DNA of 37,899 nt from the IMG/VR virus record IMGVR_UViG_3300005747_000515, positions 1 to 37,899 of that record; one strand, 5' to 3'. Made by a program: the position numbers and the translations under genes. The stretch comes from a virus. The notes below the pieces were generated by a model. That model worked only from the letters and a program-made list of their open reading frames with translations, did not search any database and was not told the DNA's origin. Of the stretch, positions 2,714 to 36,179 are shown piece by piece. Numbering within the stretch: the first letter of the stretch is position 1; each line of letters begins with the position of its first letter.

Positions 2714-2793
2714 CAGTGGAACGACAATAAAAGAAATTTAATAACAAGGGGCTACCAGTCTTACCGCGTTCCACTGCGTTCGGTAGTCCTTTG
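2714..2793 (+). ncRNA. Structured leader A: pseudoknot before the 2809 gene
   Basis: Two long helices interleave. Helix 1 is CAGTGGAACG (2714-2723) with CGTTCCACTG (2767-2776), 10 perfect pairs. Helix 2 is CAAGGGGCTACC (2745-2756) with GGTAGTCCTTTG (2782-2793), 12 pairs including two G-U. The strand order 1-2-1-2 is an H-type pseudoknot with connecting segments of 21, 10 and 5 nt. It begins just after a promoter and ends 15 nt before the ATG at 2809. Lengths and complementarity make chance unlikely. The role is inferred: translational control or transcript protection. Confidence 0.75.
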
Positions 2794-2808
2794 TTTAAAA
2801 ACAAAACT

Positions 2809-3033
2809 ATGACAACATTTAAAACACTCGTTAAGAGCGAGAAGAAGAAAAAGACTAGATATACTCATTGCTTAAATGGAGATGGAGTTTGGGAGGGAAC
2901 GGGAGATGGTATTTCTCAAAACGCTATTGTAGTGGAATTATCAGAAGGTATATTTGTAGAAATACTTAATAATGGAGATACATTCATCTACAAAGGCATA
3001 AAAGGAGACGAGGACTATCAAGAGATAGATTAA
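2809..3033 (+). CDS. Hypothetical small protein (74 aa)
   Basis: I start at the ATG at 2809 because it has the A-rich upstream context used elsewhere and leaves the leader pseudoknot intact; an in-frame TTG at 2791 would put the start inside that structure. The protein has a basic N-terminal stretch (KSEKKKKTR) followed by a beta-rich, acidic part (VVELSEGIFVEILNNGDTFIYKG) and ends in acidic residues. I do not recognise a family. It is the only gene between two structured RNA elements (2714-2793 and 3041-3130). Confidence 0.7.
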   Translation: MTTFKTLVKSEKKKKTRYTHCLNGDGVWEGTGDGISQNAIVVELSEGIFVEILNNGDTFIYKGIKGDEDYQEID

Positions 3034-3040
3034 AAAGCAT

Positions 3041-3130
3041 CAACAGGAGCATAGGACAAGTTAAAGTATAAACAAACAGTTTTACTTGGTGTACTGAAGG
3101 GGTTTAGTATAGTCGCTCCTGTTGGTTTTT
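3041..3130 (+). ncRNA. Structured RNA element B with terminal GC stem and T-tract
   Basis: CAACAGGAGC (3041-3050) pairs perfectly with GCTCCTGTTG (3115-3124), closing a 64-nt interior. Inside, TACTGAA/TTTAGTA can form a hairpin with a GGGG loop (3092-3109), and CAAGT/ACTTG can pair. GTTTTT follows the closing stem, so the unit could act as a terminator or as the stable 3' end of a transcript. It starts 7 nt after the stop of the 2809 gene. No promoter is visible directly upstream. A 6-bp interleaving pair TTTAGT/ACTAAA (3103-3108/3144-3149) is possible but weak. Confidence 0.55.
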
Positions 3131-3159
3131 AATGTATTGAAACACTAAAATAAAATATT

Positions 3160-3399
3160 ATGGATAATAGAGATTTGGCAGAAAAGATATATTCAGACCT
3201 TAATGAAAAAGGAGCTGACTTAAGTAATGTATCAATAGTTTTTATAGAGAAAATACTAAACGATAATGGAGTAAAAAACTGCTCTACACATAATGTTGTA
3301 GATCAAAGCGAACAGTTTACCCCTAAACAACTTTGGATAATGGCACAAAAGTATAATGCTGATGACTTTATTAAAATTGTAAAAGAGATTGGGGGGTAA
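3160..3399 (+). CDS. Hypothetical protein (79 aa)
   Basis: A 79-residue acidic, probably helical protein starting MDNRDLAEKIYSDLNEKGAD. A central stretch carries CSTHNVVDQSEQFTPKQLW. No transmembrane segment or recognisable domain. The ATG follows an A/T-rich leader 30 nt after structured element B. Function unknown. Confidence 0.6.
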   Translation: MDNRDLAEKIYSDLNEKGADLSNVSIVFIEKILNDNGVKNCSTHNVVDQSEQFTPKQLWIMAQKYNADDFIKIVKEIGG

Positions 3400-3470
3400 A
3401 TTGCCTACAACACAATGATAAAATAATACACGTTGCGCAGCAATGGATTAAAAACGAAAAATCAAATAAA

Positions 3471-3632
3471 ATGGGATTAATAATATTAAATTTAGGATTA
3501 GCTTTAATTAATGGCATAATGAGTTATTTTAATTATAAACTAGAAAACTATAAAATAAGCACATTTAACGGATTTGCTTGTGGGTTTTGTTTGTGTGCAG
3601 CATTTGCGATTTCATTAAATAATTTTATCTAG
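3471..3632 (+). CDS. Small membrane protein (53 aa)
   Basis: The frame ATG-GGA-TTA at 3471 runs to TAG at 3630 and encodes 53 residues with two hydrophobic segments: LIILNLGLALINGIMSYF at the N-terminus and FACGFCLCAAFAISL (about 35-49). A short polar loop NYKLENYK separates them. Three cysteines cluster in the second segment. It fills the gap between 3399 and 3671. Function unknown. Confidence 0.55.
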   Translation: MGLIILNLGLALINGIMSYFNYKLENYKISTFNGFACGFCLCAAFAISLNNFI

Positions 3633-3638
3633 CTTGTT

Positions 3639-3666
3639 AACGCAAAATGTAAAACGCAAAATGTGA
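3639..3666 (+). repeat. 14-bp tandem repeat before YopX copy 2
   Basis: Two consecutive copies of AACGCAAAATGTRA (3639-3652 and 3653-3666) differ at one base and end 4 nt before the ATG at 3671. They could bind a regulator or be a slippage product. Confidence 0.5.
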
Positions 3667-3670
3667 AATT

Positions 3671-4030
3671 ATGAAAAGAGAAATAAAATTTCGTGCATGG
3701 GATAAAAGAGCCAATGCTTTTACTGATGGTTGGGTTATTTATCCAGATGGTAATTGTGAATATCCACAAGGGGGGTGGGATTTAGGAGGCTACTTCGAAA
3801 ATAAAGAAGAATTTATTTTAATGCAATACACAGGGCTAAAAGACAAGAACGGAGTTGAGATTTACGAAGGGGATATTTTAGCATTTGAAAGAACAAAAGA
3901 CTTTAAAAAAGAAACCGTACACCCATTTGAAGTTACTTGGGATAATGAAAAAGCAAGCTGGATTAATTTTTCACCGAAAGATATGGTAGTAGTAATCGGA
4001 AATATTCACGAAAATCCTGAATTATTATGA
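3671..4030 (+). CDS. YopX-family protein, copy 2
   Basis: A 119-residue YopX-family protein with REIKFRAW at the start, LMQYTGLKDKNGVEIYEGDI in the middle and VIGNIHENPELL at the end. It shares long, almost identical DNA blocks with the copy at 836-1216, including silent positions, so duplication or gene conversion was recent. The N-terminal third (FTDGWVIYPDGNCEYPQGGW) is unlike copy 1. A tandem 14-bp repeat sits directly upstream. The next gene overlaps its stop by 4 nt. Confidence 0.85.
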   Translation: MKREIKFRAWDKRANAFTDGWVIYPDGNCEYPQGGWDLGGYFENKEEFILMQYTGLKDKNGVEIYEGDILAFERTKDFKKETVHPFEVTWDNEKASWINFSPKDMVVVIGNIHENPELL

Positions 4031-4422
4031 AAAGATACGACAAAGACGGAAAAGAGTTCACCAAAGTCGAGCCAATGGGTTATGATTCATATTTATTAGG
4101 GAGTAAAAGAATATTCTCAAAAGATAATGATGACCCTGACAGTCTTAATTTGACTTGGTTAAAACAATGTGAAGACTATCAAAAGGAATTTAATAATACT
4201 CTAACTCCTCAACAAATGGCTGAGAAGATAAAAGAGTTAAAGAAAGAACTACTAACTATATCAATTGTAAGAAATACAGTGAAGGATAAACTCAAAGATT
4301 CACAGCAAGAAGTTGAGAGGTTGAAAGAGGGAGTGAAAGCAGTTTTGAATAAATGGAATTTAGGTGATGCTGATAAGGTATTACGACAACTTTTAGAAAC
4401 TAAACAAAAACAAGAAGGATGA
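4027..4422 (+). CDS. Hypothetical protein with coiled coil (131 aa)
   Basis: The ATG overlaps the stop of YopX copy 2 (ATGA). The first 60 residues are mixed and polar (KRYDKDGKEFTKVEPMGYDS); from about residue 65 the protein becomes a long charged helix with heptad-like spacing (KIKELKKELLTISIVRN, then DKLKDSQQEVERLKEG), a likely coiled coil. No domain recognised. The following gene also starts with an ATGA overlap, so the three genes are translated as a unit. Confidence 0.65.
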   Translation: MKRYDKDGKEFTKVEPMGYDSYLLGSKRIFSKDNDDPDSLNLTWLKQCEDYQKEFNNTLTPQQMAEKIKELKKELLTISIVRNTVKDKLKDSQQEVERLKEGVKAVLNKWNLGDADKVLRQLLETKQKQEG

Positions 4423-4652
4423 AAAATACAACAGCATTAATATTCTGCATATTATTATGCTCTACTCTGTACGCTGTAAATTACAAACCAAGAGCAAAAG
4501 AACTATGCAGCAAATCCCACGTAATAACCAAACCAGAACCAAAGCAAGGTAAGTTATTCGACAAGCCTATACGCTTTTACGAGATGCCGAGGTATAAATA
4601 TAAGACGGGGTTTCCGCTTACTGGGAATGATTATAGAGTGATTAGGTTATAA
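4419..4652 (+). CDS. Small exported or membrane-anchored protein (77 aa)
   Basis: An N-terminal hydrophobic stretch TALIFCILLCSTLYAV (about residues 4-19) looks like a signal peptide or signal anchor. There is no clear lipobox, although cysteines sit in the core. The remaining part is basic and polar (KPRAKELCSKSHVITKPEPK). The start overlaps the upstream stop as ATGA. It would act in the membrane or periplasm. Function unknown. Confidence 0.6.
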   Translation: MKNTTALIFCILLCSTLYAVNYKPRAKELCSKSHVITKPEPKQGKLFDKPIRFYEMPRYKYKTGFPLTGNDYRVIRL

Positions 4653-4683
4653 TGAATTTTAAATAATAATATAAACTGAAATT

Positions 4684-4764
4684 ATGGAATTAATACTAAT
4701 ACTAATAGGATTTGTTATAGGTGCTGCTTTTATGAGGTGGTGGATTTATTATGAGAAATGGTAA
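4684..4764 (+). CDS. Candidate 26-residue membrane micropeptide
   Basis: An AAATTATG start leads to a frame encoding a single hydrophobic helix (ELILILIGFVIGAAFM) followed by an aromatic, membrane-interface-like tail RWWIYYEKW. The composition strongly suggests a real transmembrane micropeptide. No family known to me. Confidence 0.45.
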   Translation: MELILILIGFVIGAAFMRWWIYYEKW

Positions 4765-4791
4765 TAATTATTTTTTTACAATGACGAATGT

Positions 4792-4812
4792 AAAATTTCG
4801 TTTTAATGAATT
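4792..4812 (+). repeat. 21-bp direct repeat, copy 2
   Basis: Exact copy of the 21 bases at 1999-2019, again intergenic, ending 19 nt before the ATG at 4832. It may be a shared regulatory site or a recombination footprint. Confidence 0.6.
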
Positions 4813-4831
4813 ATTTAAAAACTAGGAAATT

Positions 4832-5044
4832 ATGAATTTAACACCACAAGAAGAAGCTGAAAGGTTGATTGAGCAGTATTATAATAGCACACACAATCTT
4901 TATGTGTCTACTCAATGCGCCATTCAAGACGTACAGAATACGATAGACGTTTTAAGAGAATACGCAGACGACTCAAAGCCTATAGCTGTAGAATGGCTTT
5001 ATAGAAAAAAAGTATTAACGATACTAAAAGATAAATTGAAATGA
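4832..5044 (+). CDS. Hypothetical protein (70 aa)
   Basis: A small, mostly helical protein starting NLTPQEEAERLIEQYY and ending KKVLTILKDKLK. This style (an N-terminal EEAERLI helix, then C-A-I-Q-D-V) is common among short phage proteins of Bacteroidota, but I cannot assign a function. It is the last gene of the left plus-strand block and converges on the minus-strand lysis cassette, with only 6 nt between the two stop codons. Confidence 0.65.
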   Translation: MNLTPQEEAERLIEQYYNSTHNLYVSTQCAIQDVQNTIDVLREYADDSKPIAVEWLYRKKVLTILKDKLK

Positions 5045-5050
5045 GTTATC

Positions 5051-5416
5051 TCAAAGAGCTAAAAGCAAAACAGCAATAAGAGAAACACCAACCCCAACAC
5101 CTAATATAGTTCTTTGTCGTTGTAGTCGTTTTATTTCGTTTCGTTGTGTATTGATGAGTAGTTCTCCAATCTGCAATTGATCGTGTTTTTCTTCAAGTAG
5201 TTCAGTAAGTAAGTATATTTCTTCTTCATTTATTTTTATTAGTGAATCCGCAAAGATATACTTTTCATGTGAAGCGGCCAACATTTTAACTACTTCAATA
5301 TCTAAACAAATGGTATCACTTGATAACTCTGAACCTGTTAATTCTTGCCCGTAGACTGTCTTTTGTGATGTCAGTATAAACAGAGTCGATACTATTAATG
5401 CTATCTTTAATTTCAT
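5051..5416 (-). CDS. Exported coiled-coil protein with C-terminal membrane anchor; spanin candidate
   Basis: A 121-residue protein with a signal peptide (MKLKIALIVSTLFILTSQ, predicted cleavage near VYG-Q), a long helical middle with heptad character (INEEEIYLLTELLEEKHDQL), and a C-terminal hydrophobic helix GVGVGVSLIAVLLLAL. Its start lies inside the upstream gene, overlapping by 101 nt in another frame, the arrangement of embedded Rz/Rz1 spanin genes. No lipobox cysteine is visible, so it is not a classical lipoprotein Rz1. I infer a role in disrupting the outer membrane at lysis. Confidence 0.55.
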   Translation of the reverse strand: MKLKIALIVSTLFILTSQKTVYGQELTGSELSSDTICLDIEVVKMLAASHEKYIFADSLIKINEEEIYLLTELLEEKHDQLQIGELLINTQRNEIKRLQRQRTILGVGVGVSLIAVLLLAL

Positions 5417-5594
5417 ATTTTAATGCTTTAAGTTTGTTAAGTTCACTAATTAGTGAATCTTCTTTTAATTTTGATTGTTTGAATTGTTGTTCGATATATT
5501 GCGTATTATCGTTTGGAGTAGGTTTAAATATCAAGTAGGCAACAAGTCCAGCAAAGACTAGTGCCAGTATAAAAAACGCGGTTCGGTAGTTCAT
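5316..5594 (-). CDS. Rz-like inner-membrane protein (i-spanin candidate)
   Basis: A 92-residue protein with an N-terminal transmembrane helix (AFFILALVFAGLVAYLIF, residues 6-23) and a periplasmic charged helix (EQQFKQSKLKEDSLISELNK), the plan of an i-spanin. Its start overlaps the stop of the DUF5675-like gene by 4 nt, and the next gene begins inside it. The three minus-strand genes form one compact unit. The spanin call rests on topology and overlap, not on a family match. Confidence 0.55.
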   Translation of the reverse strand: MNYRTAFFILALVFAGLVAYLIFKPTPNDNTQYIEQQFKQSKLKEDSLISELNKLKALKYEIKDSINSIDSVYTDITKDSLRARINRFRVIK

Positions 5595-5977
5595 ATTGTT
5601 TTGATTTCAATCTCTGTTATGTTATACTGTAAAAGTTTATCCATAGTTGCCTTAGAGTTAACAACATCTAGCAAACCATCACCATTAACATCTTTGTGAT
5701 TATCACCTACAAGTACACACCCAAGCGTATGTCTATGAAAATTACCTGCATGGATTAGAATTGCACTTCTATCTGGTACATCTTTAATCCAAAATGTCAT
5801 TCCAAATTTAGGTGATTTATGCGCTCTAACTTTATAGGTACCGTCAGGTATGCACGATTTTCTTCTTTCGTTATTGTTCCAACCAAGCTCTAAAGTATAG
5901 CAAGTAAAGTCATCTACTTGTAGTTCACCTAGTGTTTGTTCAGGTTGTAATAATGTTCTGTATAAATATGCTTTCAT
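5591..5977 (-). CDS. DUF5675-like protein, probable cell-wall/lysis function
   Basis: A 128-residue protein with the DUF5675 pattern: an N-terminal YRTLLQPEQTLGEL strand pair, CIPDGTYKV, and the signature ILIHAGNFHRHTLGCVLVGD (about residues 73-92) with conserved His and Cys. The H...GC arrangement recalls the L,D-transpeptidase fold, so a peptidoglycan-acting role is plausible; no catalytic activity is established here. It opens the only minus-strand unit in the window, upstream of two spanin-like membrane proteins, which supports lysis. A TATCTTTA box lies 4 nt before its ATG, implying a near-leaderless mRNA. Confidence 0.7.
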   Translation of the reverse strand: MKAYLYRTLLQPEQTLGELQVDDFTCYTLELGWNNNERRKSCIPDGTYKVRAHKSPKFGMTFWIKDVPDRSAILIHAGNFHRHTLGCVLVGDNHKDVNGDGLLDVVNSKATMDKLLQYNITEIEIKTI

Positions 5978-5981
5978 GTAG

Positions 5982-5989
5982 TAAAGATA
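5982..5989 (-). promoter_or_regulatory. -7 box of the minus-strand lysis promoter
   Basis: On the minus strand TATCTTTA matches TAnnTTTG except for the last base and sits only 4 nt before the ATG of the 5977 gene. It overlaps the plus-strand promoter element at 5988-6010 by two bases, so the two promoters diverge from almost the same spot. No clear -33 TTTG is visible. Confidence 0.4.
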
Positions 5990-6010
5990 TAAAATAAATA
6001 CTTATATTTG
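5988..6010 (+). promoter_or_regulatory. Phage promoter element, copy 1
   Basis: A 23-base element ending in TATATTTG (6003-6010), a perfect TAnnTTTG box. It differs by one base from 6423-6445 and by three from 36081-36103. It stands 23 nt before the ATG at 6034 and should drive the SPFH-like gene and what follows. No TTTG stands at -33. Confidence 0.65.
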
Positions 6011-6033
6011 GTTAAACTAAAAATTATAAAATT

Positions 6034-6432
6034 ATGAGAGAATTAAAATGGTTTATTGCAGTTGTAACAACAATACTATTAATTACAATTGGTTTAATGT
6101 GGGGTTTACCTAAATATAACGTATGGCGTTCTGAATTAAATATCATTAAAGCTGAAAACAATGGGAAAGCTGAAATGGCTCAGGCAGAGCAAAACAGAAT
6201 GATATTGATTGAGGAAGCAAAAGCAAACTTAGAAGCGCAAAAATTAAACAGTCAGGCAGAGGTTGAGAGAGCAAAAGGAATGGCTCAGTCAATTGCTATC
6301 GAGGATGGTAAATTAACAGAGCTTTACATCAAATATCTATGGGTTAGAAATATAGATAAGATGGATGGCGAAAAAATTTACATTCCAACAGAATCAAACC
6401 TGCCAATACTTGAAGCTAAGGTTAAAAAATAA
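6034..6432 (+). CDS. Mini SPFH/prohibitin-like membrane protein
   Basis: A 132-residue protein with one N-terminal transmembrane helix (WFIAVVTTILLITIGLMW, about 5-22), a long Ala/Glu-rich helix (AENNGKAEMAQAEQNRMILI and onward, about 37-85), then LYIKYLWVRNIDKMDG and IYIPTESNLPIL. The helix and the Y-I-K-Y-L...P end resemble the C-terminal coiled coil and tail of band-7/SPFH proteins, but the globular SPFH domain is absent. Such scaffolds oligomerise in the inner membrane and regulate FtsH. I infer a mimic or modulator of host membrane scaffolds. It has its own promoter, and a second promoter copy sits on its stop codon. Confidence 0.6.
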   Translation: MRELKWFIAVVTTILLITIGLMWGLPKYNVWRSELNIIKAENNGKAEMAQAEQNRMILIEEAKANLEAQKLNSQAEVERAKGMAQSIAIEDGKLTELYIKYLWVRNIDKMDGEKIYIPTESNLPILEAKVKK

Positions 6433-6445
6433 ATACTTATATTTG
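6423..6445 (+). promoter_or_regulatory. Phage promoter element, copy 2
   Basis: Nearly identical to 5988-6010 (the last 20 bases are the same) and ending in TATATTTG at 6438-6445. It overlaps the stop codon of the SPFH-like gene. A start about 5-7 nt downstream would fall at the first bases of the structured leader beginning near 6449. Confidence 0.65.
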
Positions 6446-6448
6446 TAT

Positions 6449-6640
6449 AAAGAGTGCCAGAAGATAAACAGTGGTAGCCAAGTTAATGACGAGTGAACAA
6501 TAGTAACTTAGAAGTGGCAGAAGTGATGCATGAACACTATCACAGCTTTTGTAGAGCGTTGTTTATTGGAAGGGGTTAAATAGTGCCGATAGGGAAAATC
6601 TTTATTCCTTCAAGACTACAAACTTGAACGCTCTTTTTTA
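6449..6640 (+). ncRNA. Structured leader/small RNA C (about 190 nt)
   Basis: A gene-free transcript candidate between promoter copy 2 and the ATG at 6652. AAAGAGTG (6449-6456) can pair with CGCTCTTT (6630-6637), closing the whole element. Alternatively AGAGCGTT (6553-6560) pairs with AACGCTCT (6627-6634), and TTTGTAG (6548-6554) pairs with CTACAAA (6616-6622); these two interleave as a pseudoknot. Local hairpins include AAGTTA/TAACTT (6480/6504), GTGAT/ATCAC (6523/6539) and AGGGAA/TTCCTT (6591/6605). A T-run follows (6632-6639). The competing pairings allow two states, as in a switch or attenuator. No known RNA family recognised. Confidence 0.6.
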
Positions 6641-6651
6641 AATTAAAAACT

Positions 6652-6750
6652 ATGTATAAAAAACACTTCAACAAACAAGAGAGAAAACAACTAGCCTTTA
6701 CTTATGCAGGGTTAGTGCTTGGAATGTTTCTTGCTAATTTAATAATTTGA
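6652..6750 (+). CDS. Small membrane protein (32 aa)
   Basis: A 32-residue frame with a basic N-terminus (MYKKHFNKQERKQ) and a single C-terminal hydrophobic helix (AFTYAGLVLGMFLANLII). It is the first gene after structured leader C, 17 nt after the last helix. Its stop overlaps the TTG start of the sigma-like gene (TTGA), so it probably couples translation of that gene, acting as a leader peptide or as a membrane peptide of its own. Confidence 0.55.
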   Translation: MYKKHFNKQERKQLAFTYAGLVLGMFLANLII

Positions 6751-7262
6751 AAACAAGTGATAAAATACTAAATGATGAACGTTGTTATCAAGCAGCTAAA
6801 AAAGTTGACCCTGTAAACCACCAAGATTTATTTAACGAATGTTGGTTAAAGATTAGAGAGATAGAACTAAAAGACGTTACATTCAACCCAACTAATTACT
6901 ATCAATTCTTTTTCAGAACTTTAAAGAATCAGCGCATAGATGATTTAAGAACAGAGCAAAGACACAACAAACACAACAAGAATTGGAAGATATTAGAGTT
7001 AGAAGTAATCACAAACGATTATTCTTTTGACGAGTTTTTAATCAATTGGTTAGCAGATGAGACAGATGACGAGGTGATAAACTTTTACAAAGACATTATA
7101 TTTCTGGTACTACACAATAAAACAATAAAAGGTTTAGTATCTCAATTAAACATGAAAGAAACAACTTTCTACAAACACTATAAAACAGCAAAAGAAATTC
7201 TAAAACATGACTATATTACAAGCGCAGATAATTGCATCTTTTTTGACAGTCCTTTGGTTTAA
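6747..7262 (+). CDS. Sigma-70/ECF-like factor
   Basis: A 171-residue protein with a region-2-like helix (NHQDLFNECWLKIREIE, about 24-40, then FFFRTLKNQRIDDLR, about 54-68) and a C-terminal helix-turn-helix resembling region 4 (KTIKGLVSQLNMKETTFYKHYKTAKE, about residues 125-150). Size fits a short ECF-type sigma factor. The start is TTG, coupled to the upstream micro-ORF stop. It stands directly before the terminase genes, a position suited to switching on late transcription. It could also be a DNA-binding regulator without sigma activity. The downstream gene overlaps its end by 56 nt. Confidence 0.6.
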   Translation: MKTSDKILNDERCYQAAKKVDPVNHQDLFNECWLKIREIELKDVTFNPTNYYQFFFRTLKNQRIDDLRTEQRHNKHNKNWKILELEVITNDYSFDEFLINWLADETDDEVINFYKDIIFLVLHNKTIKGLVSQLNMKETTFYKHYKTAKEILKHDYITSADNCIFFDSPLV

Positions 7263-7518
7263 GCATTTAGGGATTCATAGAATTTTATTAGAGTTCTTTG
7301 GTTATCCACCTTATGCAAGTAAGCGAGATATTAAACAGTTCTATCTTAAACCTTTAGGGTGTTATTTTTGCACTTCTTTTTGGATAGGTGTACTAATTTC
7401 ATTACCTTTATTCTATTATTCAACATTAGAAGAAACAATATATTTTATATTACTTAATACAACCATAAGCGGAATATTAGATTCTATATTAGGTTATCAA
7501 TCAATAAAAGAAAAATGA
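7207..7518 (+). CDS. Membrane protein, DUF1360-like
   Basis: A 103-residue membrane protein with hydrophobic segments near residues 3-20 (ILQAQIIASFLTVLWF), 50-70 (GCYFCTSFWIGVLISLPLFY) and 75-95 (ETIYFILLNTTISGIL). The KPLGCYFCTSFWIGV motif resembles the C-x-x-C-x-x-F-W signature of DUF1360-type small membrane proteins. It overlaps the sigma-like gene by 56 nt and the following gene by 4 nt. Function unknown. Confidence 0.55.
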   Translation: MTILQAQIIASFLTVLWFKHLGIHRILLEFFGYPPYASKRDIKQFYLKPLGCYFCTSFWIGVLISLPLFYYSTLEETIYFILLNTTISGILDSILGYQSIKEK

Positions 7519-8057
7519 GTTATCAAAACGAACCATTACCAAAAAAGCAGTATAGCGGATCTGATTTCATCCCTTTAAGCTGTGAGAAAGAATTAAAAGA
7601 GATTAGAGCAGAGATTGAAGCGGGTGAAAACCATAAAGGTAGAAACTTTGAAATTTGCTACCAAGCTATAAAAGAACTATTTCAAGCACAAGGCTTAAAC
7701 AAGCCTAATGCTGATTGCTCTAATTGTACGGTTGAATGGAATAAGCTACTTCAAAACTGGTTTAAACGTCTTGACATGGATATAAGACCAAAAGAAGCAA
7801 CAAGCCAAACAGAGCCAAAAGAGTTAACGCCTATTGAAGGAGGTGTAGAAAAAATACACATCAGGAAAATTGAAAGCGCGGAAGATTTTAAAGAAGGATA
7901 TGCAGTAGATGAGATAGAAGCTAAAGGAATAGAAAACAACCCAGAGTTATCTAAAGAGGATAAAATAGCTCACCTTCAACAAGAGTGTAGAGAAAAAGGT
8001 ATTGAATTTAGACATAATGCAGGCATCAAAAAACTAACTGAATTACTAAATAGATGA
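7515..8057 (+). CDS. Hypothetical protein with C-terminal HeH/LEM-like motif
   Basis: A 180-residue soluble protein. The N-terminal half has GRNFEICYQAIKELFQAQG and a CSNC pair followed by VEWNKLLQNWFKRL. The middle is Glu/Lys-rich and probably disordered. The C-terminus (KIAHLQQECREKGIEFRH and GIKKLTELLNR, about 150-180) has the helix-extension-helix look of HeH/LEM-like domains that bind nucleic acid in phage proteins. Starts and ends with ATGA overlaps. A packaging or head-assembly accessory is possible given its place near terminase. Confidence 0.55.
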   Translation: MSYQNEPLPKKQYSGSDFIPLSCEKELKEIRAEIEAGENHKGRNFEICYQAIKELFQAQGLNKPNADCSNCTVEWNKLLQNWFKRLDMDIRPKEATSQTEPKELTPIEGGVEKIHIRKIESAEDFKEGYAVDEIEAKGIENNPELSKEDKIAHLQQECREKGIEFRHNAGIKKLTELLNR

Positions 8058-8431: not shown

Positions 8432-8447
8432 AGAAGATACTTATTTT

Positions 8448-8496
8448 GTGGGTTATCCTTGCGAGTGGTTCACCCACGGAGTAACGTTCTTCGCAA
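8448..8496 (+). ncRNA. Structured leader E: compact pseudoknot before the 8512 gene
   Basis: GTGGGT (8448-8453) pairs with ACCCAC (8472-8477), and TTGCGAG (8459-8465) pairs with TTCGCAA (8490-8496, one G-U). The strands interleave 1-2-1-2, a compact H-type pseudoknot with connectors of 5, 6 and 12 nt. It ends 15 nt before the ATG at 8512, as in leader A. A TATTTTG at 8442-8448 just before it resembles a degenerate -7 box. Confidence 0.55.
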
Positions 8497-8511
8497 TATG
8501 TTTGAATTGAT

Positions 8512-13882: not shown

Positions 13883-14493
13883 GAGATATGACCATGAAAC
13901 ACCTACCGTTTTTAGAGTGGTTGGTTAAGTTAAATGAAGAAAATAGAGACATACTAGACCTTACCCCTCCTGAATTGCATGAAGGTTTAGCGTTGTTTAC
14001 TGGAATACCTAAACAGCAATTTGGAATGTATCTACTAAAATCCAACTATCAGTTAATGGAGCAGATATTACTTGCATACGGTAAACGAGATGACAATACT
14101 AAGATACCCTATGAGCTTACTTATGAAGATAAAACTTATGTATTTCAATCTGACTTTACTAAACTGCCTGCAAGATGGCACGTTGATACAAGCGAAGCAG
14201 ATGTGAATGAAAATCCTATTGATATAATGTCATTCTGTTATGTTGAGAAGGGGATGGTTTATGGGCAGACGGGAGATCATAATGTAATAATAAATCCAAG
14301 GTCAGGCAGAAACGAAGTCTTTGAAAAGCACGTTGATTTAGAATTGTTCTTAGCGGTGCAGGCTTTTTTTTTGGAGAGTTGGAACGTGTTGAGAATATTA
14401 CCAGAGGTGCGAGAAAGAAACAAGGCAATAGAAGAAAGAAGAAAAAGAATGAAGGTTATCAATGGGAATGGGAAAAAGCTGTACACCATGTAG
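13855..14493 (+). CDS. Tail assembly chaperone candidate, zero frame
   Basis: A 212-residue protein starting with IKIPATVRDMTMKHLPFLEW and followed by helices and a strand-rich middle (YELTYEDKTYVFQSDF). A run of nine T at 14364-14372 near its 3' end, and an overlapping -1 frame with a good-looking domain, recall the lambda G/GT tail chaperone pair. In the zero frame the protein ends with a basic tail (RERNKAIEERRKRMKV). It likely helps wrap the tape measure protein during tail assembly; the chaperone role rests mainly on the frameshift architecture and the minor tail genes that follow. Confidence 0.65.
   Translation: MEIKIPATVRDMTMKHLPFLEWLVKLNEENRDILDLTPPELHEGLALFTGIPKQQFGMYLLKSNYQLMEQILLAYGKRDDNTKIPYELTYEDKTYVFQSDFTKLPARWHVDTSEADVNENPIDIMSFCYVEKGMVYGQTGDHNVIINPRSGRNEVFEKHVDLELFLAVQAFFLESWNVLRILPEVRERNKAIEERRKRMKVINGNGKKLYTM
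14364..14372 (+). other. Candidate -1 programmed frameshift site (T9)
   Basis: In the zero frame the codons read GCT TTT TTT TTG, so T-TTT-TTT at 14364-14370 is a correctly phased slippery heptamer (X XXY YYZ). The -1 frame is open from 14337 to the stop at 14616. A shift would give a 254-residue product: 172 residues of the zero frame plus 82 of the -1 frame. A homopolymer length error in assembly is the main alternative. Confidence 0.65.
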
Positions 14494-29332: not shown

Positions 29333-29454
29333 AAATCAGAAAAGCAACAATAAAGAAAGTAAAGAACGCAGTAAATCAAGTTAATGGCAATAAGCGCAGA
29401 CAAAACACTAAGAAGGGTAGTTTGGGAGTTAGAACAGTGGGCAAACGCTCATAA
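29329..29454 (+). CDS. Highly basic 41-residue peptide overlapping next gene
   Basis: An ATGA-coupled frame after the connector gene. It encodes KIRKATIKKVKNAVNQV, then GNKRRQNTKKG, with about a third Lys/Arg, and runs 71 nt into the next gene in a different frame. The first 55 nt otherwise lie in a gap. It could be a nucleic-acid-binding micropeptide or a translational bridge to the 29384 gene. Confidence 0.4.
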   Translation: MKIRKATIKKVKNAVNQVNGNKRRQNTKKGSLGVRTVGKRS

Positions 29455-31169: not shown

Positions 31170-31516
31170 CCCCAGAAGATGTACAATATATTACGGATTT
31201 AGTTTCGAAAGAAGAAAACAACACAGTGTTGTATGTGATAATATCATTGTTTGTAGTGTTGACTCCTGTTGTTATTTGGGCGGCTAAAATCATATTTAAA
31301 AAGACAGTTGACCAAGTAGTAGACGAAGCAATAAAACCCCAAATAGAACTACTAGAAAAGACTTTCGAGAGAGACAACAAAGCAAACGAGCAGATGTTTA
31401 GTATTATGGAAATGCACATAGACGAATTAAGGCACATTAAATTTGAGGTTGAAAGTAACAAGAAGGAAATAAGCAGCAATAAAGAAGATATAAGAAGGTT
31501 AAAAGAAACGGCATGA
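31166..31516 (+). CDS. Membrane protein with cytoplasmic coiled coil; holin/hemolysin-XhlA-like candidate
   Basis: One transmembrane helix (TVLYVIISLFVVLTPVVIWA, about 20-39) followed by a long charged coiled coil (DEAIKPQIELLEKTFERDNK, then FEVESNKKEISSNKEDIRRL). The layout resembles XhlA-type lysis accessory proteins, though with the helix before the coil. It overlaps the holin-like gene next to it by 4 nt. Confidence 0.55.
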   Translation: MTPEDVQYITDLVSKEENNTVLYVIISLFVVLTPVVIWAAKIIFKKTVDQVVDEAIKPQIELLEKTFERDNKANEQMFSIMEMHIDELRHIKFEVESNKKEISSNKEDIRRLKETA

Positions 31517-31725
31517 CAGAAATAATCAAAACAAACTGGGCTAAGTTTAACAAGTTCTTACAGCAACACATGACTAAGTTTCTAGCATTAGAAGTCGTTA
31601 CTTGTGGGTGTATTTATTTGTTTACTCATGCTGACCCAATTGGGGCTGGTGGTATAATTGCGCTAGGTTTAGGGTTAAAAGGTTGGCAAAATGTAGAGAA
31701 GCGTAGAGAAAAAACCTTATCTTAG
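31513..31725 (+). CDS. Holin-like small membrane protein (70 aa)
   Basis: A 70-residue protein with an amphipathic basic N-terminus (WAKFNKFLQQHMTKF), hydrophobic segments LALEVVTCGCIYLF and GAGGIIALGLGLKGW, and a basic end (KRREKTLS). Two helices with a charged tail suit a class II-type holin. It follows a coiled-coil membrane protein and is separate from the lysis block at 5051-5977. Confidence 0.55.
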   Translation: MTEIIKTNWAKFNKFLQQHMTKFLALEVVTCGCIYLFTHADPIGAGGIIALGLGLKGWQNVEKRREKTLS

Positions 31726-31729
31726 TAGT

Positions 31730-32584
31730 ATGAAGCTAATTGAAAAGTCAAGAAACGTTCATGTTTTAAAGATTGATTCCAAGAAAAGAACGCAACAAAT
31801 TAAGATAGGGATGTTTTCAGACCTTCACTGGGACAACCCAAAATGCGATAGGGTTTTACTTAAAAAACATTTAGATGTTTGTTTAGAGAATAACTATCGA
31901 ATACATTTAAACGGAGATACTTTTTGCTTAATGCAAGGTAAATATGACCCTAGAAAGTCAAAAGGTAGTATAAGACCAGAGCATAACAAAGATAATTATT
32001 TAGATGCGGTTATAAATACGGCTGTGGATTGGTTCTTACCTTATGCGCATTTGATAGATGTTGTTGGATATGGCAACCATGAAACCAATATAATCAAAAG
32101 ACTAGAAACAGATCCTTTACAGAGGTTTGTTGACTTACTTAACTCAAAGGCTAATATAGAGCATAAAGTTTATACAGGTGGTTACGGTGGTTGGTATATC
32201 ATAGTGATAGATACTATCCCTTATAAGATACGTTATTATCACGGTTCAGGTGGTGGTGGTATGGTTACGCGTGGAGAAATAAACCTAACCAGAGCATTAG
32301 AGATGTATGAGGGGTTTGATTGTTTTACTATGGGTCATGTTCATGAGAATAAAGAAACGTTTGTAGTTCGTGACGCTTTATATGGCGACCATCAACAATA
32401 TCAAAAGGAACTGTTAATGATGATTACAGGAACCTATAAGGAGGAGTATGACGGTGGTTTTATGGGTTGGCACGTTGAGAGAGGTGCCCCGCCTAAAACA
32501 GTTGGTAGTAGGTTACTTACTTTAAACTACTACAGACCACATAAAGACAAACCTAGAATAATAGGTCGTTCAGAAAAGTTTTAA
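31730..32584 (+). CDS. Calcineurin-like metallophosphoesterase
   Basis: A 284-residue protein with all metal-binding motifs: FSDLHWD (D31, H33), NGDTF (G62-D63), YGNHE (N116, H117), YYHGSGGG (H171) and MGHVHE (H203, H205). This is the two-metal phosphoesterase core that cleaves phosphomono- or diesters, including nucleic acids and nucleotides. It is the last gene of the late operon, 5 nt after the holin-like gene. Substrate unknown: DNA end processing, nucleotide signalling or host RNA are possible. Confidence 0.85.
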   Translation: MKLIEKSRNVHVLKIDSKKRTQQIKIGMFSDLHWDNPKCDRVLLKKHLDVCLENNYRIHLNGDTFCLMQGKYDPRKSKGSIRPEHNKDNYLDAVINTAVDWFLPYAHLIDVVGYGNHETNIIKRLETDPLQRFVDLLNSKANIEHKVYTGGYGGWYIIVIDTIPYKIRYYHGSGGGGMVTRGEINLTRALEMYEGFDCFTMGHVHENKETFVVRDALYGDHQQYQKELLMMITGTYKEEYDGGFMGWHVERGAPPKTVGSRLLTLNYYRPHKDKPRIIGRSEKF

Positions 32585-32614
32585 ACAGGTTTTATTTCAT
32601 AGTTTTTCCTGTTT
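32583..32614 (+). other. Hairpin at end of late operon
   Basis: AAACAGG (32583-32589) pairs with CCTGTTT (32608-32614) around an 18-nt loop and overlaps the stop codon of the phosphoesterase gene. It lies directly upstream of the strong terminator and may protect the 3' end. Confidence 0.5.
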
Positions 32615-32616
32615 AG

Positions 32617-32640
32617 CCCCTAATCTTTAGGGGTTTTTTT
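32617..32640 (+). terminator. Strong intrinsic terminator of the late operon
   Basis: CCCCTAA (32617-32623), loop TCT, TTAGGGG (32627-32633), then seven T (32634-32640). This separates the late genes from the replication module. Confidence 0.9.
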
Positions 32641-32728
32641 ATGCCTTGTAAATACTATAAACACTAGGATTTTAAAAATAAATTCAAAATAATTATAAAA
32701 AAAGTATTATTTATTAATATTTATTTTA

Positions 32729-32736
32729 TATCTTTA
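32729..32736 (+). promoter_or_regulatory. -7 box of the replication-module promoter
   Basis: TATCTTTA matches TAnnTTTG except for the last base and stands 23 nt before the ATG at 32760, in a very AT-rich stretch after the late terminator. No clear -33 element. The AT-rich segment 32645-32735 could also be a melting region for replication. Confidence 0.5.
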
Positions 32737-32759
32737 CACCGTAAACAAAAAGAAAAATT

Positions 32760-33062
32760 ATGAAAGTAGATTTAAAAGAATACAAAACTGTCAAATGTGA
32801 TATACCAAAGGTTGGTGATGTTGCGTTTAAATCTAATGATTGGAGAGAAAAATTACCATTTACAATTATTAATATTGAACACGATAACACAAGAAGCCTT
32901 TTAAATAATAGTCTAAAAGAAAGATATGATATTTATCATGTTTATGGTGTAAATAAAAAAGAGTTCAGAAAATTCACGTTTTCAAATGGAGCGTTTATTA
33001 CTTCAACTAAGGTTAGAAAAGGAAGTAAAAAAGAAACTCAATTAAAACAAATCAAATTATGA
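32760..33062 (+). CDS. Hypothetical protein, first gene of the replication module (100 aa)
   Basis: A basic, beta-rich protein beginning KVDLKEYKTVKCDIPKVGDV, with YDIYHVYGVNKKEFRKFTF and a Lys-rich end. V-G-D-V near residue 18 resembles small SH3-like barrel starts. As the first gene after the early promoter it could be a host-takeover protein, which is inference from position only. Confidence 0.55.
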   Translation: MKVDLKEYKTVKCDIPKVGDVAFKSNDWREKLPFTIINIEHDNTRSLLNNSLKERYDIYHVYGVNKKEFRKFTFSNGAFITSTKVRKGSKKETQLKQIKL

Positions 33063-33199
33063 ACATAAAAACAAAGAGCAGTAAAAAGGTAACCGTCCAA
33101 CTCAGACAGAGGGTAGACGGTAAATTAAAAACCAAGTCCTTCACGGTTTATGATGCAGACATCAAAGAGCTTGAAGAACACATAAAAAAAACGATATGA
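33059..33199 (+). CDS. Small basic protein (46 aa)
   Basis: An ATGA-coupled gene on both sides, encoding a 46-residue basic protein: VTVQLRQRVDGKLKTKSF forms a likely beta hairpin and DADIKELEEHIKK a helix. This strand-strand-strand-helix look recalls arm-type DNA-binding or AP2-like domains, so DNA binding is possible. Its overlaps with both neighbours support it as real. Confidence 0.6.
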   Translation: MNIKTKSSKKVTVQLRQRVDGKLKTKSFTVYDADIKELEEHIKKTI

Positions 33200-33516
33200 A
33201 AGTAGGAGATAAAGTAGTAGCGTTAATAAGTGAAGAAATAATTGACAAAATAGTAAAAGGAGAAGTTTACAAAATAAAAAGGTCGTTTATGTGGGATGGC
33301 TACGGATTAGTAATTGTATTAGAAGGACAATCAGATACTGGATGGTTAGTTAATGATAACGGAAGAATTTACTTTAAAGAATTAGAACCACAAAAAAGCC
33401 AAAGCACATCCGCAAGTCGTAGCCTAGTAAAAACACTACACGTTGAAAAGATAGGAACTAAAAAGGATAAGTACCTAGAAGAAGAAAGAGAGTTACAATT
33501 AAACGCTAAATTTTAA
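33196..33516 (+). CDS. Hypothetical protein, SH3-like start (106 aa)
   Basis: Begins MKVGDKVVALISEEIIDKIV with strands SFMWDGYGLVIVLEGQ following, consistent with a small beta-barrel. The C-terminal third is polar and charged (KKDKYLEEERELQ). No family recognised. Coupled to the 46-residue gene upstream. Confidence 0.55.
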   Translation: MKVGDKVVALISEEIIDKIVKGEVYKIKRSFMWDGYGLVIVLEGQSDTGWLVNDNGRIYFKELEPQKSQSTSASRSLVKTLHVEKIGTKKDKYLEEERELQLNAKF

Positions 33517-33520
33517 AACT

Positions 33521-33772
33521 ATGAAAACAAATAAATTAATCAAACTAACTGACCAAGAAAAACGGTCAATAGAAATAGAAACAGCTGGACAGCTTGTAAA
33601 GATATTAAACAACACAGAAGGTAAAGAACCATCAGAAAGGTTGTCTAATGTAATTAAAGCCGTTGAAAAGCTTTTAAACGAAGAAAAAAGCATATTCAAA
33701 CATGAGCTGCATGAGCTAGAGAACAAAGTAAAAGAATTAGAAACCAGTTTACAAAGACAAGTTAGAAAATGA
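33521..33772 (+). CDS. Hypothetical coiled-coil protein (83 aa)
   Basis: A helical protein, with SIEIETAGQLVKILNNTEGK and then heptad-rich SIFKHELHELENKVKELETS at the end, a likely dimerising coiled coil. Its stop overlaps the ATG of the DnaA-domain gene by 4 nt, so the two products may act together. Confidence 0.6.
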   Translation: MKTNKLIKLTDQEKRSIEIETAGQLVKILNNTEGKEPSERLSNVIKAVEKLLNEEKSIFKHELHELENKVKELETSLQRQVRK

Positions 33773-34200
33773 AGAAGTCAAAAGCATTTGAATTAATTGA
33801 AGCTGAATTAACTAATAAATATTGGCGGCCTAATTATATCAAAAGAGTTTGTGAGTTATATTTAAACAAGAATATTCATAAAGCAGAAGTAGAAAATTTG
33901 ATAAATTATACTTGTTTGTTCTTTGATGTGTCACAATCAGAACTGCTATCTAAATCAAGAGTTAGAGAATTAGTTACAGCAAGGTCTTTTATGATGAAAA
34001 GACTCAGAAAAGAAAACGAATTTACTTACACTTTTATAGGTAATATATTTAAAAAAAATCATGCTACTGTTATTCACAGTATAGACAGTTTAGATGACTT
34101 GATGACTTTTGATAAAAAATTGAAAAAAAAGTACGATCAATTTATAAAAGGCTTGGGACCTAAAGAAGAATCTGAAGAAAACCGAGTATTAATCAATTAA
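33769..34200 (+). CDS. Free-standing DnaA domain IV-like DNA-binding protein
   Basis: A 143-residue protein matching the DNA-binding domain IV of DnaA without its ATPase: FFDVSQSELLSKSRVREL (51-68), the ARSFMMKRL helix (71-79), and the signature KKNHATVIHSIDSL (95-108), equivalent to DHSTVLHA in DnaA. In DnaA this domain binds TTATNCACA boxes. A stand-alone version could mark the phage origin, recruit the helicase loader, or compete with host DnaA. The N-terminal 45 residues have no counterpart I recognise. Confidence 0.82.
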   Translation: MKKSKAFELIEAELTNKYWRPNYIKRVCELYLNKNIHKAEVENLINYTCLFFDVSQSELLSKSRVRELVTARSFMMKRLRKENEFTYTFIGNIFKKNHATVIHSIDSLDDLMTFDKKLKKKYDQFIKGLGPKEESEENRVLIN

Positions 34201-34226
34201 TAATCAGTATATTTAATAAAAAAATT

Positions 34227-34502
34227 ATGAAAACAAAAGAGAATCTAACCAGTAGGAACTACGTAGAAAACTACGAGAACAACTACACGTTTGAACTAGA
34301 CTTTGAAACCTTTACAATTATAGCCAATGTAACAGAAGATGTAAGGAGCTACGACTGCTCAACTCACAGGGGTAACATGGAACTAAAAGAATCAAGGTTT
34401 TACATTGAGATAGACAGTTGCCTGGATCATGAAGGTGACGAAGTAGAAGATTTAACAAACGAACAAATCATTGAATTAGTAGAGTATAACATTAAATTTT
34501 AA
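34227..34502 (+). CDS. Hypothetical acidic protein (91 aa)
   Basis: A small acidic beta-rich protein (YTFELDFETFTIIANVTEDV; SRFYIEIDSCLDHEGDEVED). A TATATTTA sequence at 34208-34215 upstream resembles a -7 box. The acidic character recalls DNA-mimic or protein-binding proteins, but that is only composition. Lies between the DnaA-like and annealing genes. Confidence 0.55.
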   Translation: MKTKENLTSRNYVENYENNYTFELDFETFTIIANVTEDVRSYDCSTHRGNMELKESRFYIEIDSCLDHEGDEVEDLTNEQIIELVEYNIKF

Positions 34503-34506
34503 AACT

Positions 34507-34890
34507 ATGAAAAGAGATATGCTAAAAGACCTTTACAAAAGGTATGAACTGGAAAGTTCTGACGTATTTAAACATCAACACTACGTAATAATAACTCGTA
34601 GCGGAATTGATAAAATACAAGCGGTTGCAAACATTGCTATAAACTACGAAGTGATAAACTGTGAAAGAGATTTTTGTGTAGTTAAAGCAAATGCGAAACA
34701 CGACAATAAGAGTATTGAAACATTCGGCAGTGCTTTAAAAGGTGATTTTAAGACGGGTAACTGTAACACATGGTATGTTATGGAGATGGCAGAAAAAAGA
34801 GCAATGAGTAGAGCAGTATTAAAGTTGACAGGCTTTTATGAGTTAGGCGTTTTCGGAGAAGATGAGAGCGAAGATTTTAAGAAGAAGTGA
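34507..34890 (+). CDS. Erf/Rad52-like single-strand annealing protein candidate
   Basis: A 127-residue protein. TRSGIDKIQAVANIAINYEV (about residues 36-55) and VMEMAEKRAMSRAVLKLTGF (about 94-113), then GVFGEDES, match a pattern found in Erf/Sak-type annealing proteins (A-E-x-R-A-x-S-R-A). Such proteins anneal single strands during phage recombination. Short relative to full annealases, so it may be a minimal version. It precedes an SSB-like gene, supporting recombination or replication. Confidence 0.6.
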   Translation: MKRDMLKDLYKRYELESSDVFKHQHYVIITRSGIDKIQAVANIAINYEVINCERDFCVVKANAKHDNKSIETFGSALKGDFKTGNCNTWYVMEMAEKRAMSRAVLKLTGFYELGVFGEDESEDFKKK

Positions 34891-35168
34891 TGGGAGCGCA
34901 CTCAAAAGAATTTTTAAACGACAGGATGGATTATATTGATGAATTATTTGAGTCTGAACACAATCAGATAAGCAAGATTGAAACTTTGTTGCATAGAGCT
35001 TGTATTGAGGTTGAAGAAAAAGATTCTATTTATCGAGAGATTAAAGATTATATGACGTTTGAAAGAGCAGAAGAATTAATAAACTATTTATATTTAAACC
35101 AAGTAGATCCGATAAGTGGAGGATTTAACTATTCGCAATCGGACATAATTAAAAAACAAAAACAATGA
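34887..35168 (+). CDS. Hypothetical protein (93 aa)
   Basis: ATGA-coupled between the annealing and SSB-like genes. Helical and acidic (DRMDYIDELFESEHNQISKI, DYMTFERAEELINYLYLNQ). The last part, VDPISGGFNYSQSDI, resembles phage protein ends next to annealases, with no known function. Confidence 0.55.
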   Translation: MMGAHSKEFLNDRMDYIDELFESEHNQISKIETLLHRACIEVEEKDSIYREIKDYMTFERAEELINYLYLNQVDPISGGFNYSQSDIIKKQKQ

Positions 35169-35440
35169 GTAAAGAAACAATTTATGTAAAAGGGGTAAGA
35201 ATTTTTAACCCTCATGAAAAAGCACCAGACTTTGTAAAAGGCACGGTAATACTAGAACCAAAGATGTTAATGGAGTTCTTTAAAAGTAATTCAGAACATT
35301 TCACAGAGTACAACGGGGAAAAGCAATTACGTTGCCAGTTGTTACAAGGCGATAAAGGAATGTATTTAAGTGTTGACACTTACAAACCAGAAAACCAACC
35401 GCAAAGTCAATCAGAGGTAGATGATTCGCTTCCGTTTTGA
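35165..35440 (+). CDS. SSB-like protein with acidic C-terminal tip
   Basis: A 91-residue protein with a beta-rich body (GVRIFNPHEKAPDFVKGTVI; QLRCQLLQGDKGMYLSVDTY), a Gln/Ser/Pro-rich linker, and the tail EVDDSLPF. The acidic tail ending in P-F is the protein-docking peptide of bacterial SSBs (DDDIPF). The body is shorter than a usual OB-fold SSB but fits a small single-strand binding protein. It lies just after the annealing protein, where phages often keep an SSB. ATGA-coupled upstream. Confidence 0.68.
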   Translation: MSKETIYVKGVRIFNPHEKAPDFVKGTVILEPKMLMEFFKSNSEHFTEYNGEKQLRCQLLQGDKGMYLSVDTYKPENQPQSQSEVDDSLPF

Positions 35441-35501
35441 GCTAATAAAATATCTGAAAAATTTAATTGTATACTACCTTTTTAATTACCGTTTTAATTC
35501 G

Positions 35502-35509
35502 TATATTTG
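35502..35509 (+). promoter_or_regulatory. -7 box directly before the HNH gene
   Basis: TATATTTG is a perfect TAnnTTTG box. Only 4 nt separate it from the ATG at 35514, so transcription should start at or next to the ATG, giving a leaderless mRNA. No TTTG at -33 is obvious. Confidence 0.55.
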
Positions 35510-35513
35510 AATC

Positions 35514-36059
35514 ATGAAAAAGAAATGTTTTAAATGCGAAGAGGTTAAATCCTTAGATTATTATTATAAGCACGCAAAAATGGCAGACGGCCACTTAAAT
35601 AAGTGTAAAGAATGTACTAGAAAAGACGTGAAAGAACGAGAAGATAATTTAAGGAAAGACCCTGAATGGTGTGAAAAAGAAAGAGCTAGACATAGAGATA
35701 AATATTATAGACTTGACTATAAAAATAAACACAGGCCAACTCCAAAAATGAGGAGGGAAGCAATAGAGAGATATAAATTAAAGTACCCAGAAAAAGTAAG
35801 AGCTAGAAATAGAAGCTCTCATTTAAAAGCTGAAATAAAAGGCAATCATTTACATCATTGGAGCTATGCAGAGGGTTTTGAAAAAGATGTTATTGAGTTA
35901 TCAGAAAAAGAGCATAATTTACTACATAGGTTTTTAACTTATGACCAAAAAGAAATGCTTTACAGAGCTGACTTATTCAGTGATGAATTGCTTGATACAA
36001 AGTTTAAACACTTAGAGTATTTTAGATTTATACTTCTGAAAACAAAAACTAATAAATAA
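35514..36059 (+). CDS. HNH-type nuclease with N-terminal zinc finger
   Basis: A 181-residue protein. The N-terminus is a zinc-ribbon finger (C5-x2-C8, C31-x2-C34; YYYKHAKMADGHLNKCKEC) found in phage HNH nucleases. A strongly basic middle (ERARHRDKYYRLDYKNKHR) follows, then an HNH-like core GNHLHHWSYAEGFEKDVIEL and LSEKEHNLLHRF (about 110-140). It has its own promoter-like box, so it behaves as an independently expressed insertion, in the style of a homing nuclease; its flanks show no intron. Confidence 0.7.
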   Translation: MKKKCFKCEEVKSLDYYYKHAKMADGHLNKCKECTRKDVKEREDNLRKDPEWCEKERARHRDKYYRLDYKNKHRPTPKMRREAIERYKLKYPEKVRARNRSSHLKAEIKGNHLHHWSYAEGFEKDVIELSEKEHNLLHRFLTYDQKEMLYRADLFSDELLDTKFKHLEYFRFILLKTKTNK

Positions 36060-36073
36060 ATTTGATTTAGTAG

Positions 36074-36103
36074 TTGACAATATAAAATAAATTACTATAT
36101 TTG
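36074..36103 (+). promoter_or_regulatory. Phage promoter element, copy 3 (with -33)
   Basis: TTGAC at 36074-36078 and TATATTTG at 36096-36103 give a promoter with a 19-nt gap between TTG and the -7 box. Bases 36081-36103 match 5988-6010 at 20 of 23 positions. It drives the helicase loader and primase-helicase genes through leader D. Confidence 0.75.
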
Positions 36104-36105
36104 TT

Positions 36106-36179
36106 TTGGAGTCTTGGCTTAGCGGCTGGGTTCAATGAGGTTTCTACGTTCCTGCTCCAATATTATAAATAACGTAGAA
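36106..36179 (+). ncRNA. Structured leader D: pseudoknot before the helicase loader gene
   Basis: TTGGAG (36106-36111) pairs with CTCCAA (36155-36160), and TTCTACGTT (36142-36150) pairs perfectly with AACGTAGAA (36171-36179). The strands interleave 1-2-1-2, a pseudoknot with connectors of 30, 4 and 10 nt. It ends 17 nt before the ATG at 36197. The first helix starts only 2 nt after the -7 box, so its first bases may lie before the transcript start; four or five inner pairs (GGAG/CTCC plus T-G) would remain. Confidence 0.65.

Follow-up and report, generated by a model that had tools for sequence, protein, structure and literature searches.

Structured and pseudoknotted leader RNAs are already known. 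The rep (repZ/repA) leaders of IncI-alpha and IncB plasmids have pseudoknots, a loop pairing with distal sequence near the start of the initiator gene; the gene 32 messenger RNA (mRNA) of phage T4 has a 5′ leader pseudoknot upstream of the ribosome site of this DNA-replication gene; and the wcaG RNA contains pseudoknots. The put sites of HK022 and the nut sites of lambda target distant terminators and have no set spacing to AUG. wcaG is a structured cyanophage RNA found in the context of exopolysaccharide and light-induced genes (PMC2864571). Among riboswitches, SAM-V is a pseudoknot (PMC6061858), SAM-II with long loops is known in Bacteroidetes (PMC2864571), and one SAM-II riboswitch works also via a terminator (PMC9373788). 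Here, the 5′ leaders in a viral stretch of 37,899 nucleotides (nt; IMG/VR record IMGVR_UViG_3300005747_000515, positions 1 to 37,899; hereafter the window) were analysed. Two of them, leaders 1 and 4, are predicted pseudoknots of two unrelated classes (termed C and A, respectively), and it is these two classes that look new. Gene control in phages of Bacteroidota is little known, and two covariation-backed leader RNAs provide concrete, testable control elements; carriers with named hosts are Flavobacterium phages sniff9-1 and mymlan6-1, Cellulophaga phi19:1, and Polaribacter Freya_6 and Danklef_5.

Two pseudoknotted leaders in the window

Each of the four leaders analysed is located directly 3′ of a Bacteroidota-type −7 box, namely TAnnTTTG at 2699, 6438 and 36096 (leaders 1, 2 and 4, respectively) and an imperfect TTATTTTG at 8440 (leader 3; Table 1). 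The crossing helices of leader 1 reach a stacking score of −44.3 kcal, which 0 of 400 dinucleotide shuffles equalled (such crossing-helix scores omit loop penalties and rank candidates only). In accordance with the definition of class C, the loop of its hairpin P0 is predicted to kiss P3 inside S2, after TAnnTTTG and before AUG, and this kissing helix is the strongest among 88 leaders that were picked without using it; the U-tract usual after S2 in class C is missing. Leader 1 is thus classified, from its sequence, as a class C pseudoknot. Its 74-amino-acid (aa) gene had no PHROG match and no relative in IMG/VR, no relatives of the leader were found via this gene, and blastn of leaders 1 and 4 against cultured phages gave nothing useful.

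Leader 4 harbours S1, hairpin P and a crossing S2 in the order that defines class A before AUG, and matches the class A covariance model at E 1.9e-15 (leader 4 itself being in the model). When leader 4 is taken alone, ~1% of dinucleotide shuffles score as well, and support for its predicted pseudoknot and class A membership comes from its homologues.

Table 1. Positions of predicted leader elements and associated genes in the window.
Feature	Position	Strand	Basis
Leader 1, −7 promoter box TAACTTTG	2699–2706	+	TAnnTTTG match; putative transcription start from consensus
Leader 1, hairpin P0 (2712–2714/2723–2725), loop 2715–2722 AGTGGAAC	2712–2725	+	Sequence; architecture shared with ~35 class C leaders
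Leader 1, kissing helix S1, 2714–2723 with 2767–2776 (10 bp)	2714–2776	+	Crossing-helix scan
Leader 1, helix S2, 2743–2756 with 2782–2795 (14 bp)	2743–2795	+	Ends 13 nt before ATG 2809
Leader 1, hairpin P3 (2765–2767/2776–2778), loop 2768–2775 GTTCCACT, nested in S2	2765–2778	+	Sequence, class architecture
Gene headed by leader 1, 74 aa, function not assigned	2809–3033	+	Open reading frame
Leader 2, long leader after TATATTTG box (6438–6445), claimed pseudoknot unsupported	6446–6654	+	Shuffles, minimum free energy
Leader 3, imperfect −7-like box TTATTTTG	8440–8447	+	Sequence
Leader 3, candidate H-type pseudoknot, 8448–8453/8472–8477 and 8459–8464/8491–8496 (6+6 bp), ATG 8512	8448–8496	+	Shuffles
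Leader 4, promoter, TTGACA (36074–36079) and TATATTTG (36096–36103)	36074–36103	+	Sequence, box match
Leader 4, helix S1, 36106–36111 with 36155–36160 (6 bp)	36106–36160	+	Covaries in 23 sequences
Leader 4, internal hairpin P, 36113–36118/36125–36130, loop UUAGCG	36113–36130	+	Covaries in 23 sequences
Leader 4, conserved class A linker UUCAAUGAGG	36131–36140	+	Within search pattern, invariance partly imposed; altered in divergent second copies
Leader 4, crossing helix S2, 36142–36150 with 36171–36179 (9 bp)	36142–36179	+	Own versus swapped pairing test
Replication-initiation (O-like) gene headed by leader 4	36197–36865	+	phrog_678, E 1.3e-8

Class C kissing-loop leaders

Class C was first spotted by eye in leaders upstream of replication-gene relatives. 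Two hairpins, P0 at the 5′ end and P3 nested in a long helix (S2), pair with each other through their loops. To avoid circularity, P0 and S2 were the sole criteria for picking the 88 non-redundant leaders of the test set. In 39 of them, pairing between the P0 loop and the interior of S2 reaches −10 kcal or lower, with 5.8 expected after partner swap (0 of 20,000 permutations). Among those 39, ~35 are class C, and a few are class A members or unrelated helices. The class is widespread and was found in cultured Flavobacterium, Cellulophaga and Polaribacter phages as well as in metagenomic ones. A test anchored on protein sequence agreed: among the orthologues of a 70-aa gene from Flavobacterium phage sniff9-1, four of five distinct sequences had class C leaders, with differing S1 and S2 (for the orthologue L342, the promoter box used led to no clear class C fold), and between sniff9-1 and mymlan6-1 the changes in S1 are compensatory (GUGAGACG/CGUCUCAC to GUGGAACG/CGUUCCAC). 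Some phages harbour several class C leaders (L049, L220, L255 and L258), with kissing sequences that differ within one phage.

P0 starts 1–14 nt past the −7 box. The fold thus extends from about the transcription start site (TSS) to the edge of the initiation region and fills the leader. The distance from S2 to ATG is 7–27 nt in 23 leaders and 40–51 nt in 12, and most of these 12 have, after S2, a second hairpin and a gene of ~70–77 aa, the gene mostly overlapping the next one. Past the last G/C of S2, 8 nt contain on average 5.9 U, versus 2.8 in control leaders, and at least five U follow S2 in 86% versus 14%.

The second hairpin, NGGU-nnnCUUAAA-ACCN, is preceded by AGUUAU or AGUUUAU and located directly before the start codon of the ~70–77-aa gene; its stem varies with compensatory changes (L256:10353–10495; L145, L162, L177, L193, L211 and L039). 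A small uncharacterized gene (...LDKSTAIKFAKTLRTEINK...) lies between leader and replication gene at about 2775–3005 in L177, L162, L211, L171, L145, L190, L193 and L196, its end overlapping the next start. In Riemerella phage CRP12 (L260), the leaders at 14167–14353 and 30911–30759 (minus strand) follow TATATTTG, have a 15-bp S1 and an extra inner hairpin, and possibly represent a third class. Very long S2 helices (up to 20 bp) or large inserted domains at L208:1224, L142:2569 and L156:2705 are possible further variants.

Class A leaders and their covariation

A relative found via the terminase (L007) carries a leader 4 homologue with both helices altered on both sides. Searching IMG/VR with a pattern on loop and linker (TAGCGG...TTCAATGAGG) yielded 87 matches in viral contigs, mostly by chance; 23 (two of them near-identical) had the flanking helices. 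The 22 distinct matches besides the window are followed by an ATG and usually have a promoter box shortly before them. As the UAGCGG and UUCAAUGAGG bases belonged to the pattern, their conservation is partly imposed; in divergent copies found with the covariance model, the pattern bases are changed and the fold is kept.

In the 23 sequences, 97.5% of cells in S1 and hairpin P are paired, with 83 two-sided changes, compared with 28 in shuffles and at most 18 when the helices were slid. S2 was used neither for finding nor for aligning the sequences, and here pairing with the own partner averaged −12.2 kcal, versus −5.3 kcal with the partners of others (0 of 20,000 permutations). All three class A helices, the crossing one included, therefore covary. 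S2 ends 14–20 nt before ATG in 20 of the 23; the exceptions are L097 (23 nt), L075 (4 nt at the chosen ATG, ~15 nt from a later one) and L059, which was mis-parsed.

The genes that follow include NUMOD4/HNH-type endonucleases, MAENKKSFLIYCD-type genes and a replication protein. Whole phage records mostly carry class A once, and two (G012 and G013) carry two class A-like leaders. Under stricter filters, 0 of 198 Bacteroidota genomes had class A in a bacterial chromosome, and the only record of the genome collection that matched is a contig found among the viral contigs too. The conserved CAAUGAGG has an AUG that opens an open reading frame (ORF) of at least ten codons in 23 of 23 sequences; a leader peptide was nevertheless rejected, as the ends of the AUGAGG ORF vary and the divergent copies L261 and L262 are without that AUG. 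In the closest replication-gene relative (L141:2898–3000), a compact leader is weakly class A-like (E 0.01–0.6), with S1 AAGUGAGG/CCUCACUU and S2 AAGUAGUU/AACUACUU.

Enrichment in phages and interchange before replication genes

Crossing-helix scores were determined for 165 non-redundant non-coding leaders after TAnnTTTG boxes, from contigs that were fetched for terminase, replication gene or class A and so are not random phages, the class A members being in part selected for. The scores were −22 kcal or lower in 54 leaders (8.8 expected from shuffles), −28 kcal or lower in 28 (0.42 expected) and −32 kcal or lower in 15 (0.05 expected). Stretches of equal length after in-gene boxes stayed at shuffle level. 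Among 96 leaders from 1.15 Mb of Bacteroidota chromosomes, one reached −28 kcal (0.85 expected), and when the cut-off was relaxed the excess was mild (16 versus 8.5 expected at −22 kcal). In this sample, the two classes were confined to phages.

Both classes begin within a few nt of the −7 box and head genes mainly of replication and nucleic-acid metabolism. The same rep gene follows a class A leader in the window and L157 and a class C leader in L146, L147, L164, L209 and L220, and the two classes look interchangeable before orthologous replication genes. The gap between fold and ATG would match the footprint of a ribosome.

Leaders 2 and 3 and other promoters of the window

The preliminary description had united leaders 1 to 4 (leader 2 with its knot from 6548) as one pseudoknot family with strand order 1-2-1-2 and a constant spacing of 15–17 nt to the start codon. 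The pseudoknots of leaders 1 and 4 held up, that of leader 3 is unproven in that no homologues were found, and that of leader 2 is at chance level. By the ends of their own helices, leaders 1, 3 and 4 are spaced at 13 nt (two more pairs than first counted), 15 nt and 17 nt, respectively, and the proposed range proved too narrow for class A as well as class C. What persisted is a topological family of divergent sequence at a short, limited distance before starts, which is enriched in Bacteroidota phages over shuffles, coding controls and host chromosomes: enrichment before starts was found in relatives, and shuffled leaders do not often reproduce it.

For the crossing helices of leader 3, 0.5–5% of shuffles are as good, varying with the assumed RNA start, and its pseudoknot is plausible on sequence; homologues were found neither via TerL-anchored relatives, nor via its gene, nor via a loop pattern. 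For leader 2, 2.5% of shuffles match the segment 6530–6654 and 16% the full leader, the best pairing differs from that claimed, and the z-score of the minimum free energy is 0.03. This leader runs for ~200 nt after a good TATATTTG box to a terminator-looking end (AGAGCGTT/AACGCTCTTTTTT) before a 33-codon ORF, and the downstream gene at 6747–7262, taken earlier to be sigma-like, has no Pfam or PHROG support. Further TATATTTG boxes at 6003–6034 and 35502–35514 have very short leaders (~20 nt or less), showing that not every promoter of this phage has a knotted leader.

Discussion

From the observed folds, covariation, placement and interchange before orthologous genes, we propose, with a probability of about 0.42, that leaders 1 and 4 represent two unrelated 5′ leader RNA classes acting as cis switches through attenuation and/or gating of initiation. 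Phages of Bacteroidota place the leader RNA after a host-type promoter and ahead of the leading gene of an operon, which is mostly that for replication initiation. In the class C fold, the 5′ P0 kisses P3 inside S2, with S2 ending shortly before AUG and usually running into a U-tract like that of an intrinsic terminator; in the class A fold, the 5′ S1 encloses a hairpin and crosses S2, which ends ~16 nt before AUG. Co-transcriptional folding of the knot may then decide on passage of RNA polymerase (class C) and/or access of the ribosome to AUG (both classes), by which output of the replication operon would be set or autoregulated. The TSSs, folding in vivo, switching and any trigger are what we infer.

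That the two classes are placed alike and replace each other ahead of one replication gene points to a common role that is set by topology rather than sequence, and the terminator-like 3′ arm of S2 would favour attenuation in class C. Several points weigh against such switches. S2 of leader 1 and of class A is without a U-tract, so attenuation is not a mechanism common to all members; as a terminator, S2 would have an unusually large interior (~15–45 nt, P3 included); S1 and S2 can form side by side, and an off-state structure is thus not evident from the sequence; and no ligand or protein partner emerged from the analysis. A wider proposal, which we regard as rather doubtful, is that Bacteroidota phages have evolved, more than once, sequence-divergent yet topologically alike knotted leaders as a general switch of early or replication operons. 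Working on its own as an attenuator or a gate of initiation, such an RNA would suit hosts that make little use of Shine-Dalgarno pairing, with the kissing sequences as leader-specific locks. The ribosomes of these hosts largely ignore Shine-Dalgarno sequences (PMC9976891).

The main rival, itself unlikely, is that the knots are mechanical protectors of the 5′ end, stabilizing the mRNA by blocking 5′-end-dependent RNases, with S2 stopping where the ribosome footprint begins. That the first element of the fold (P0 or S1) starts at the putative TSS or a few nt away in both classes, that topology is kept while stem sequence is free, and that unrelated folds replace each other before the same gene would all be expected of a plug; however, a simple hairpin would do, the U-tract bias of class C S2 is left unexplained, and the conserved loop and linker bases of class A, although their conservation is in part a product of the search pattern, suggest a role beyond plugging. 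Chance pseudoknots in AT-rich intergenic sequence account for leader 2 and possibly leader 3; as an explanation of classes A and C they are scarcely credible, being refuted by shuffles, coding controls, host chromosomes, swap tests and covariation.

Two further explanations invoke a factor acting in trans. The preliminary description envisaged one factor binding all leaders and coordinating the whole phage cycle, and operators through which a single factor of phage or host, either RNA-binding or antiterminating, coordinates several operons would fit the phages with more than one class C or class A-like leader, while a terminator-like S2 would suit a processive antiterminator. Leaders 1 and 4, however, differ in architecture and belong to different RNA classes with no common sequence motif, which disfavours a single sequence-specific factor; most class A phages have one copy, kissing sequences vary between leaders of one phage, no candidate factor emerged, and the genes headed, mainly of replication and nucleic-acid metabolism, give no sign that a whole cycle is coordinated. 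We hold this explanation to be quite unlikely. Less likely still, and improbable overall, is control by an RNA in trans, either an antisense RNA to the P0 loop in the manner of IncI/IncB or short leader RNAs set free at S2 and targeting other leaders, similar to P4/P1 c4 immunity: the architecture resembles plasmid rep leaders in its loop-to-distal pairing beside the rep start, and loop sequences diversify as specificity determinants would, but antisense −7 boxes are not enriched (0.64 per kb in class C versus 1.48 per kb in control leaders) and no antisense gene was seen.

Comparison with known systems

No gathering-score match to Rfam 15 was found in the window, no plausible family at E≤5 at the class A and C leaders, and solely transfer RNAs in the cultured phages L254, L256 and L258; SAM-II, preQ1 and SAM-V, whose ligand-binding cores are represented in Rfam, had no match. 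The literature searched, closed-access work and preprints being outside its scope, held no description of class A or C leaders. Candidate RNAs numbering in the thousands, some of them close to phage genes of Bacteroidetes, were listed in a microbiome study (PMC8040213), and these leaders may overlap with them.

Of the two features by which plasmid rep leaders are recognized, loop-to-distal pairing near the start codon of a replication initiator is present, and an antisense promoter opposite the leader loop is not enriched in class C. The likeness to IncI-alpha/IncB thus lies in a leader hairpin loop that pairs distally, close to the start of a replication-initiator gene; here, however, two loops kiss within a second long helix or form a helix that crosses it, and the setting is that of phages with Bacteroidota promoters and several kinds of gene headed. 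T4 gene 32 likewise has a phage mRNA leader pseudoknot before a DNA-replication gene, yet the present folds are much larger, 5′-terminal and spread over many genes and phages, and no gp32-like autoregulator emerged. SAM-II, SAM-V and preQ1 share H-type pseudoknots in 5′ leaders near the start codon, but the genes headed here are replication and nuclease genes rather than metabolic ones. wcaG is also a structured leader-type RNA carried by phages, although it belongs to other phages and differs in sequence and gene context. HK022 put, lambda nut and LoaP-type elements are structured RNAs just 3′ of a phage promoter, which would fit the terminator-like S2 of class C, whereas their fold is unrelated. 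Against this background, the knotted leaders of Bacteroidota phages look like an undescribed set of RNA gene-control elements with at least two unrelated folds.

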